Below, in pieces: positions 11,325-13,708 of a stretch of 42,679 nucleotides of DNA. The stretch lies in NCBI GenBank assembly GCA_913042895.1, contig CAJWMQ010000006.1:1-42679 (forward strand), written 5' to 3'. This DNA comes from an uncultured Verrucomicrobiales bacterium. GTDB taxonomy: Bacteria; Verrucomicrobiota; Verrucomicrobiia; Limisphaerales; UBA1100. How positions within the stretch are numbered: the stretch's first letter is position 1; each line of letters opens with the position of its first letter. The position numbers and the translations under genes were made by a program. Below the pieces are notes generated by a model. It saw nothing but the letters and a program-made list of their open reading frames with translations. It was not told the origin of the DNA and did not search any database.

Positions 11325-12338
11325 CTACCGGCCGGAATTCGACTCAAATTTGCCGTGTACCGAATCTCCCTCAGCCGGAACAACCTCCTCAACCGCCACC
11401 GGCTGAGCTTCTTGACGTCCCCAACCGAGGTACACCAACAATGCATCAGACGCTAATAACAAAAATGCCAATGCCGCCGCCAGCACAAGCAACCGTTTCT
11501 CACGCCATGTGAAGGGTCCGGCAAAAAACGAAGGCGCATTCAGCTGACGCAAAGCCGCCGCCAACGAAGCAGCATCCTGAAAAGCCTCGCGCTCATCACC
11601 CGAGCAAGCCCGCAGCAACAGCCGGTTCAGTTGCATCAACGGATCACGAGCAGATAAGCCGCGCGCAGTGGGCGGCAAATCAGGAAAGGAGTTGCGATCC
11701 ATGCCCGTGCTGGCCTCATACAACACCTTGCCCAATGCATACAAATCCCCGCGCCAATCACCTGCCCCTTCAGCCGGCAAAAAACCCAGCGTCCCAACCT
11801 CACCCGAAGCCACGCCGGACCCGGCCACCAATCCAACATCCGCCAGCTTGGGTCGGCCGTTTACATAAACGATATTCGAAGGCTTGATGTCCCGATGCAC
11901 CAGACCGTGCGCATGGAGATAATGCAGAGCATCGGCCAACTCGCCCCCGATGTAGGCGCATTCTTCTATCGGCAAGGATTCCCGGGCATTTAGGTCCGAT
12001 TGCAACGTACGCGCACTGTAATCCGCCGAGCGCACCGATTGACCGACCACCTGGTCATCGGCCAGCTCCATCACATAATAAAAGTATCCCTCTTCATCGT
12101 TCCGGCCGACATGCAATACATCGATCAACCCTTCATGCCCACGGGAAATTGCCTCGTAATGCCGGATGCCGTTCAGTTCGCGCTGGTATGGCCGCGAATC
12201 ATCAAAGAGCGAGCGCTGCACAATCTTCACCGCCCGCCAAGCTCCCAGCACGCTGCGGGCCAGCCACACCTGCCCATAGCTGCCCCGAGCGATCTCGATC
12301 ACCAGCTCATAATCGGGAATGTAAAATGATTTGCCCAT
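11325..12338 (-). CDS. Membrane-anchored Ser/Thr protein kinase
   Basis: This is a 337-residue Hanks-type kinase from the ATG at 12338; a TTG 12 nt upstream is less likely. Glycine loop ARGSYGQVW (17-25), ATP lysine K38 (AVKIV), catalytic loop HRDIKPSN (148-155) with D150, and metal motif DVG (167-169) in place of DFG. An activation segment ending GFLPAEGAGDWRGDLYALGK replaces the usual APE block; this variant recurs in a PVC-type kinase group. One C-terminal membrane helix (about 282-304) ends in a short acidic, presumably periplasmic tail without sensor domain. It is divergent from an ECF sigma gene, so it may control sigma activity. It is followed by uxaA on the same strand. Family is certain, target unknown. 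Confidence 0.9.
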   Translation of the reverse strand: MGKSFYIPDYELVIEIARGSYGQVWLARSVLGAWRAVKIVQRSLFDDSRPYQRELNGIRHYEAISRGHEGLIDVLHVGRNDEEGYFYYVMELADDQVVGQSVRSADYSARTLQSDLNARESLPIEECAYIGGELADALHYLHAHGLVHRDIKPSNIVYVNGRPKLADVGLVAGSGVASGEVGTLGFLPAEGAGDWRGDLYALGKVLYEASTGMDRNSFPDLPPTARGLSARDPLMQLNRLLLRACSGDEREAFQDAASLAAALRQLNAPSFFAGPFTWREKRLLVLAAALAFLLLASDALLVYLGWGRQEAQPVAVEEVVPAEGDSVHGKFESNSGR

Positions 12339-12405: not shown

Positions 12406-12415
12406 TCACCTCCTT
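12406..12415 (-). other. Perfect Shine-Dalgarno-like decamer without a start codon
   Basis: The minus strand reads AAGGAGGTGA, fully complementary to the 16S rRNA 3' end, 67 bp upstream of the kinase ATG. No ATG, GTG or TTG lies at a useful distance behind it, and the kinase frame has a stop in between. The plus strand therefore carries an anti-SD-like TCACCTCCTT. Confidence 0.45.
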
Positions 12416-12434
12416 GTATTAACAATAAGTTATC

Positions 12435-12465
12435 GAAGGTTGTTCACAAAGGGAAGGTTATTCAC
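12435..12465. repeat. Two 13-bp direct repeats, candidate operator
   Basis: GAAGGTTGTTCAC (12435-12447) and GAAGGTTATTCAC (12453-12465) differ at one base and are 18 bp apart. Two further NTTCAC copies lie at 12365-12370 and 12376-12381. All are in the intergenic region upstream of the kinase gene, and this spacing suits binding sites for a transcription factor. No binding protein can be named. Confidence 0.45.
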
Positions 12466-12551
12466 CTCACTCGGCGTAGAACAAAAAACTTTAGAAATTT
12501 GTTAGAACGACTCCGCGACTACGGTACCTATCAATGACATGGGGGTATCCA

Positions 12552-12743
12552 ATGATTCAAAGCACACTGAAACTCAAACTGAACAACCGGGCCGCTCTGA
12601 CGCGCCGAGTGTCCCGCAACCGCAACCACGCCATCGGCCAGCTCTGGTTCCGGCATATCCGCGCCCGGCTAAACAAAGGCGCCGATTCGCCCTCCGCGCC
12701 ATGGCCGCCCGCGCCCGAGCAGCAAATCTTTCCGTGGCGCTGA
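12552..12743 (+). CDS. Possible small basic protein
   Basis: This is an open frame of 63 codons beginning MIQSTLKLKLNNRAALTRRV, strongly basic in its first two thirds and Pro-rich at its end. It lies in the otherwise empty kinase/sigma intergenic region and on the strand of the sigma gene. A G-rich run (12541-12545) sits a few bases upstream of the ATG. No family is recognised, and an overlapping frame (12539-12781) is equally open, so this may be chance. It could be a small DNA- or RNA-binding peptide, but there is no positive evidence of that. Confidence 0.22.
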   Translation: MIQSTLKLKLNNRAALTRRVSRNRNHAIGQLWFRHIRARLNKGADSPSAPWPPAPEQQIFPWR

Positions 12744-12779
12744 CCGTGCATCAATTTACCAGGAAGGCTACATTCGCAT

Positions 12780-12941
12780 GAGGAATCCCGCAGTCATGGT
12801 TGGGTTAAACAAAGACTGCACGCCTCCGCATTCCTCGTGCCTCTACCCGCAGCCGGGGTCCCCTTGCCCGTCCGGGCAACCGGACGGGCGCCCCCTGACC
12901 CTGAGTGAGCCCCGACCTGGCGTGCCTTCCCCTGGCGCGCC
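12780..12941 (+). ncRNA. Candidate structured RNA or sigma-factor leader (three consecutive hairpins)
   Basis: Three strong hairpins follow each other. H1: outer stem GAGGAAT/ATTCCTC (12780-12786 with 12830-12836) encloses inner stem GCAGTC/GACTGC (12790-12795 with 12814-12819). H2: a perfect 10-bp stem GCCCGTCCGG/CCGGACGGGC (12866-12875 with 12880-12889) closes a GCAA tetraloop, a GNRA-type loop, and is extended by GGGTC/GACCC (12856-12860 with 12897-12901). H3: GGCGTGCC/GGCGCGCC with a 7-nt loop (12919-12926 with 12934-12941, one G-U pair). No U-tract follows any of them, so they are not simple terminators. The region ends 53 bp before the ECF sigma ATG. I do not recognise it as a known riboswitch. 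Strand is assigned by proximity to the sigma gene. Confidence 0.5.
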
Positions 12942-12994
12942 GGGCGGGCGCTAACCCGTCCCCACCCCTTCATTATTGCCCTTCACGCCCGCTT

Positions 12995-13627
12995 ATGATG
13001 CAATCCACGCCCATGAAGCCGGAGGCCCCACTGTTGGAAACCCGCAGCAGCCTCATCCAACGCCTGAAAGCCACGATCAACGGCGAAAGCTGGGAGGAGT
13101 TTTTCCACACCTACTGGGAACTCATCTATAATGTCGCCCGGCGTGCCGGCCTATCCGAGGCCGACGCCCAAGATATCGTTCAGGAAACCATCCTCAAAGT
13201 GCACAACAGCCTCGACCGCTTCGAGTACAACCGAAAACGCGGAACGTTCAAGGGGTGGCTACGCACCGTCACCCGTTCCCGGCTCAACGATTTTTTCAAA
13301 AAACAACAACGCCGCCCCGCCCTCAATCAGCCACTTGAGGAAACCGCGGATGAATTGCAAAATCTGGAAGACCCGGAAGGCCCAGAAATTGAGAAGATCT
13401 GGGATGAAGAATGGAACCGCAATCTCATCCAAGCCGCCCTGAGCCGCACCAAGAAACTCTCGAGCCCTAAGCAATTCCAAATCTTCAAATGCCATTACAT
13501 CGACGAATGGACCGTGCGCGAAACCTGCCGAACTCTGGGCGTCAATGCCGCCCAAGTGTACATGGCTAAACAACGCGTCGGCAAAATTTTCCGGGAAGCC
13601 GTAGAAACGCTTCAGGAGCAAGTGTGA
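12995..13627 (+). CDS. ECF-type RNA polymerase sigma factor
   Basis: This is a 210-residue sigma-70 family protein from the ATG at 12995; the frame is open further up to a GTG at 12905, but those codons overlap the hairpin region and are not family-like. Region 2 runs over about residues 20-95 (FFHTYWELIYNVARRAGLSE, AQDIVQETILKVHNSL, GWLRTVTRSRLNDFF). Region 4 is an HTH near the C terminus (FQIFKCHYIDEWTVRETCRT, GVNAAQVYMAKQRV). It lacks a large extra domain. In PVC bacteria such sigma factors are often encoded beside Ser/Thr kinases, as here (divergent, about 650 bp apart), and no anti-sigma gene is present. Its 3' end is 4 bp from the 3' end of a convergent tRNA-Arg gene. Confidence 0.88.
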   Translation: MMQSTPMKPEAPLLETRSSLIQRLKATINGESWEEFFHTYWELIYNVARRAGLSEADAQDIVQETILKVHNSLDRFEYNRKRGTFKGWLRTVTRSRLNDFFKKQQRRPALNQPLEETADELQNLEDPEGPEIEKIWDEEWNRNLIQAALSRTKKLSSPKQFQIFKCHYIDEWTVRETCRTLGVNAAQVYMAKQRVGKIFREAVETLQEQV

Positions 13628-13631
13628 AAAA

Positions 13632-13708
<77 letters not shown>

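Follow-up and report, generated by a model that had tools for sequence, protein, structure and literature searches.

The window analysed here is a stretch of 42,679 nt from an uncultured Verrucomicrobiales bacterium, within which two small open reading frames, ORF A and ORF B, lie between a Ser/Thr protein kinase gene and an ECF sigma factor gene:

11325 to 12338, minus strand: Ser/Thr protein kinase gene, divergent (Pkinase, E 2e-18)
12552 to 12743, plus strand: ORF A, 63 codons, a conserved small protein (WFRHIR...EQQxFxWR)
12778 to 12954, plus strand: ORF B, 58 codons (MRNPAVMVGLNKDCTPPHSSCLYPQPGSPCPSGQPDGRPLTLSEPRPGVPSPGAPGGR, stop TAA)
13013 to 13627, plus strand: ECF sigma factor gene, start ATGAAG (Sigma70_r2, E 2e-13; TIGR02937)

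Relatives for comparison were metagenome-assembled genomes of Verrucomicrobiota/Verrucomicrobiales, several of them named after ocean surveys. Orthologues of the sigma factor (70-100% identical) were identified in seven other genomes of the same genus (genus 1) and in four of a second genus (g5), all belonging to one family. The gene order kinase (divergent)-ORF A-ORF B-sigma was kept in every relative examined, as was the divergent orientation of the kinase neighbour, whose identity ranged from 67 to 96%. An upstream ATGATG in the sigma frame (12995) is missing from two relatives (G012 and G016), making ATGAAG at 13013 the better start of the sigma gene. No recognisable Shine-Dalgarno sequence precedes this gene, which begins 47-68 nt after the ORF B stop at the ten loci measured, and no anti-sigma gene was identified beside the locus. 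A promoter scan of the intergenic region on the plus strand returned nothing, and scanning the same strand for terminator-like sites (a GC-rich stem followed by a U-run) likewise yielded none, in keeping with the lack of a U-tract reported in a first-pass annotation of this region. Short conserved blocks, ATTGCC and CTTATGATGCAATC, separate ORF B from the sigma gene at constant spacing (12976-13008) and are partly kept even at loci without the ATGATG (L040 and L042). A tRNA-Arg(ACG) gene (13632-13708, minus strand) lies immediately past the end of the sigma gene, in the opposite orientation.

Two further conserved sequences were observed on the kinase side of the locus. Between the kinase gene and ORF A, TTCACAAAGGGAAGGTTATTCAC (12443-12465) is nearly unchanged in both genera, occurs once in the genome and is a candidate for regulating the divergent module. 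The second lies about 60-70 nt before the kinase start, where TCACCTCCTTG (12406-12416) has been conserved; its minus-strand reading (CAAGGAGGTGA) comes close to a perfect Shine-Dalgarno sequence, and no start codon is obvious at the usual spacing from it.

ORF A was present in all 12 genomes that carry the sigma orthologue, always between the kinase gene and ORF B, although in G012 (locus L078) it was missed by tblastn and read directly from the sequence. Its product is 60-63 aa long and has four invariant positions (W, I, F and W), and changes in the gene show a third-position excess. An overlapping frame, A' (12539-12781), likewise stays open in every relative, its stop overlapping the ORF B start (ATGA); preference was given to ORF A for its WFRHIR and EQxxFxW positions, which are conserved, and for its third-position variation. 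Neither ORF A nor ORF B matched an entry in Pfam or NCBIfam.

ORF B coincides with a region of unusually dense base pairing. The first-pass annotation had described three strong hairpins between 12780 and 12941 and considered their density suggestive of a structured RNA; the fold of this segment (-74.5 kcal/mol) was indeed more stable than expected by chance, as dinucleotide shuffles averaged -60.1 ± 4.0 kcal/mol (z = -3.6) and none of 200 reached so low a value. The structured element, as captured by our RNA model R1, comprises the following parts:

12776 to 12954, plus strand: whole structured element, 179 positions, co-extensive with ORF B
12776 to 12786, plus strand: hairpin 1, outer helix, 5' arm, including the ORF B AUG
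12790 to 12795, plus strand: hairpin 1, inner helix, 5' arm, 6 bp, 98.5% of cells paired
12799 to 12807, plus strand: hairpin 1, loop GTTGGGTTA, the same in 12 of 12 genomes, including synonymous third positions
12814 to 12819, plus strand: hairpin 1, inner helix, 3' arm, pairing with 12790 to 12795
12830 to 12840, plus strand: hairpin 1, outer helix, 3' arm, conserved as its 5' arm
12845 to 12859, plus strand: possible small hairpin ACCC/GGGT (AUCC/GGAU in genus g5), one double-change pair
12865 to 12874, plus strand: hairpin 2, 5' arm, 99% paired, tetraloop at about 12876-12879
12881 to 12890, plus strand: hairpin 2, 3' arm, pairing with 12865 to 12874
12911 to 12926, plus strand: hairpin 3, 5' arm, 15 bp with one bulge, 97% paired
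12934 to 12948, plus strand: hairpin 3, 3' arm, GGGCGGG conserved

Except for two bases before the start codon, the helices lie wholly within ORF B. The nested arrangement of hairpin 1 was recovered as first described, with a 7-bp stem (12780-12786/12830-12836) enclosing a 6-bp stem (12790-12795/12814-12819); with its flanks the outer helix reaches 11 bp (12776-12786/12830-12840). This outer helix measures 10-11 bp in all genus-1 genomes, is partial in G012 and is gone in the other three g5 genomes. Hairpin 2 (GCCCGTCCGG-GCAA-CCGGACGGGC at 12866-12889, with a T-G pair added outside) retains the GCAA-capped 10-bp stem of the original description, whereas the 5-bp extension proposed with it (GGGGTC/GACCC) was predicted but did not emerge as a conserved covarying helix. 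The third hairpin is also present, but an end at 12941 is too early, as the full helix has 15 bp (12911-12926/12934-12948), of which GGCGTGCC/GGCGCGCC supply the inner part. The small hairpin at 12845-12859 is weak owing to rivals among the other predicted pairings, and a further helix that closes the structure by pairing the end of ORF A with the ATGATG at 12995 appeared in some genus-1 folds only.

To define the distribution of the element, genomes of the order were searched with R1, and 12 of 320 matched (E 1e-46 to 9e-33), the element being absent from the other 308. In a class-wide sample of 384 genomes the model again matched only within the same family. Each of the 12 genomes with the element carries the sigma orthologue and eight genomes of the family without the orthologue also lack the element. 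With search filters off it was found neither at paralogous sigma genes (even at 57% identity), whose upstream regions were also inspected directly, nor at more distant sigma homologues. Dense perfect pairing had originally raised the possibility that a palindromic repetitive element sits ahead of the sigma gene, and a search for further copies was suggested as a test. None were found: the element occurs once per genome and in the same place, in this genome and in each relative, never unlinked from the sigma gene, which excludes the repeat hypothesis and leaves it practically no probability. With Rfam gathering scores only two tRNAs were detected in the window, and permissive searching added only SorX at 12.9 bits (gathering score 46.6, E 4.3), so that no family fits. 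These searches indicate that the element is a lineage-specific, undescribed RNA structure. Weak matches to an ORF B profile did appear outside the family; the best of them, L044, precedes what looks like a TetR-type gene, has no sigma gene in sight and was judged to be noise.

Selection acts on the ORF B reading frame. The first-pass annotation had held that no protein frame in this region looks real, a view that is contradicted by the open, conserved frame at 12778-12954 and its codon-type substitutions. Across the 12 genomes ORF B spans 54-59 codons, with 27 residues invariant among eight distinct sequences, and its product is rich in Pro and Gly. An alternative reading is that the region is a non-coding structured RNA whose sequence constraint merely keeps ORF B open, and both the unusual constraint on ORF B synonymous sites and the location of several invariant residues (GRPL, PGGR) on helix arms are in line with it. 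However, changes mapped on the tree were distributed 35:28:70 over the three codon positions, a clear third-position excess, and alignment indels were confined to 3, 6 and 9 nt. Synonymous changes exceeded expectation both across all ORF B columns (38 of 72 vs 22.9 expected, p = 0.0002) and in unpaired columns (26 of 47 vs 15.5 expected, p = 0.0014), p-values that are slightly optimistic since the five genome pairs used have a small part of one branch in common, while in the two other frames they fell below expectation. Moreover, the stop is kept through an exchange of TAA in one genus for TAG in the other, whereas stops interrupt frame +1 in all of the genomes and frame +2 in half. A purely non-coding RNA is therefore improbable.

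Covariation was assessed using 12 sequences (11 distinct) from the two genera and five helices. The first-pass annotation had proposed a covariance search in related genomes, and compensatory changes were indeed seen in three helices, which persist in the same place in all 12 genomes with this sigma orthologue. At least seven pairs were altered on both sides with pairing kept. The number of pairs with both-side changes was 8 vs 4.5 in shuffles (2 of 500 shuffles reached 8), the number of cells with such a change 19 vs 6.4 (0 of 500) and the covariation score 0.164 vs 0.108 (0 of 500). Across the five helices 93% of cells were paired vs 34-40% in controls in which the partner arm was slid, and an unbiased scan of all column pairs ranked the same three helices first for covariation. 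Individual double changes comprised G-C to A-U in the inner helix of hairpin 1 (with A-U to G-U in G012), C-G to G-C and U-A to C-G in hairpin 2 (plus a one-sided C-G to U-G) and three pairs in hairpin 3 (C-G/U-A, G-C/A-U and C-G/U-A); several of these fall within one genus and hence represent separate events. The hairpin 2 tetraloop varied freely (GCAA, CTTT, GAAG, AAAT) while its stem was kept. The three hairpins are thus conserved as RNA, and their compensatory changes are combined with a fixed position upstream of the same gene at all 12 loci, as is expected of a conserved cis-regulatory structured RNA.

The pattern of mismatches additionally revealed which nucleic acid and strand is paired. 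Leaving aside the lineage-variable outer helix of hairpin 1, variant cells included about 15 G-U but only 3 A-C combinations, and this tolerance of G-U with few A-C identifies the paired molecule as plus-strand (sigma-sense) RNA. Perfect palindromes can bind dimeric proteins, and the region does sit in a regulatory locus, so that inverted repeats acting as DNA, for instance as regulator binding sites between the kinase and sigma genes, had to be considered. This explanation is hard to credit given the plus-strand signature, the freely varying loops and the lack of a common motif among the three helices.

Constraint on the RNA is also visible in the codons of ORF B. In the same genome pairs, synonymous divergence was 0.28-0.33 for ORF B, 0.77-0.81 for sigma and 0.60-0.82 for ORF A, i.e., synonymous sites of ORF B changed two to three times less than those of the neighbouring ORFs. 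When ORF B codons were shuffled with protein and codon counts kept, the shuffled versions folded worse in 10 of 10 genomes (native z -2.6 to -5.2); the same controls on sigma and ORF A gave no consistent shift, with single cases shifted. Resampling ORF B from codon usage agreed for genus 1; for genus g5 the effect was not clear, G012 having a z of about 0. Such data bear on the possibility that the codons of a Pro/Gly-rich protein (CCN vs GGN) produce the hairpins incidentally, with no role for them as RNA. Although ORF B codons resampled from ordinary usage already yield about -66 kcal/mol (G000), the uniform outcome of the synonymous shuffles and the fact that compensatory pairs join synonymous and non-synonymous positions largely refute this idea, which we regard as very improbable. 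The ORF B region is accordingly a clean case of double constraint, with protein and RNA selected on the same letters.

What this conserved fold does is a more tentative matter. We consider it somewhat probable that this region serves the ECF sigma gene as a structured, translated leader, with an mRNA that is selected for the three helices and controls sigma; a folded small-gene leader serving as a built-in control element for the sigma factor is the most likely interpretation. A cis-acting sigma leader was one of the options originally put forward, and the compensatory changes, strict sigma linkage and strand-specific G-U tolerance favour it, whereas nothing supports the free small RNA offered alongside. 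Action in cis on the sigma gene is something we infer from position and linkage. According to this leader model, ORF A, ORF B and sigma would be transcribed as one operon, and the folded ORF B would limit initiation at its own AUG, which in genus 1 lies within the outer helix of hairpin 1. Consistent with this, the AUG region had a predicted unpaired probability of only 0.07-0.18 in six genus-1 genomes, but values of 0.22-0.56 in genus g5 indicate that occlusion is not conserved. Ribosome traffic through ORF B would then unfold or refold the helices, and ribosome passage would set the amount of sigma by coupling, re-initiation or transcript stability. Such gating by ribosome passage is suggested by the distance between ORF B stop and sigma start, together with the missing Shine-Dalgarno sequence; the sigma start itself was not clearly sequestered in predicted folds.

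Ribosomes would, conversely, unwind helices located in a translated ORF, which makes a role apart from translation possible. Intercistronic hairpins that are very stable and GC-rich typically belong to processing or stability elements, and those of ORF B are very stable and GC-rich, hairpin 3 lies right against the ORF B stop and the plus strand offered no terminator. The fold could thus serve to process or stabilise the A-B-sigma transcript, or to release a small RNA from it, in place of translational control of sigma. We view this as a possible but rather unlikely alternative, as a generic stability hairpin would need neither an invariant loop nor so strict a tie to a single sigma gene, and the element has no second copy in the genome.

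Within the preferred leader model, the hairpin 1 loop (GUUGGGUUA in the RNA) deserves particular attention. Its invariance in 12 genomes at every codon position calls for a contact partner, which may be a protein, a ligand or the 3' end of the same transcript. GGUUA in this loop can pair with the sequence at the ORF B stop (UAACC, UAACU or UAGCC) in all 12 genomes; the changes in this potential pseudoknot are one-sided (G-U) only, which makes it a lead as opposed to a finding. A self-sensing coding RNA could be envisaged, in which a compact ligand- or ribosome-sensing fold includes the GGUUA-stop pairing and termination at ORF B directly gates sigma, a more elaborate model that we judge unlikely.

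Individual components of this arrangement have precedents. The RseD leader peptide is associated with translational coupling and CsrA control. RseD is encoded by a short leader-peptide ORF that immediately precedes an ECF sigma gene within the same operon (PMC8595263), and ORF B, known here from its sequence, similarly is a short ORF ahead of an ECF sigma gene; in contrast to RseD, it contains three covarying helices and has a Ser/Thr kinase gene as neighbour, with no anti-sigma gene identified. In Mycobacterium tuberculosis, translated uORFs of metE and ppe2 overlap B12 riboswitch leaders and modulate the downstream gene, the ppe2 uORF acting by termination-reinitiation (PMC11260477). ORF B likewise overlaps a structured RNA that is probably a leader, its translation being suggested by codon-type selection, but its region matches no Rfam riboswitch family. 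Translation of the E. coli toiL uORF upstream of topAI alters RNA secondary structure and controls the downstream gene (PMC12121999); toiL acts via structure at the downstream ribosome-binding site, whereas the conserved helices of ORF B are internal to the reading frame and sequestration of the sigma start is not evident. For the sigma factor itself, the adjoining Ser/Thr kinase gene matches the gene neighbourhood of the STPK-linked groups ECF43 and ECF59, in which the DAED motif is replaced by uncharged residues (PMC8103513). In contrast to these groups, the sigma factor of this locus reads DAQD or DSQD in the aligned sequences and therefore keeps both terminal Asp residues. Overall, structured translated leaders and a leader peptide before an ECF sigma gene (RseD) are known kinds of element, of which ORF B is a new, lineage-restricted case that suggests a layer of RNA-level control over a kinase-linked ECF sigma factor in uncultured marine Verrucomicrobiota, and both its small protein and its RNA model could serve as additions to annotation libraries.
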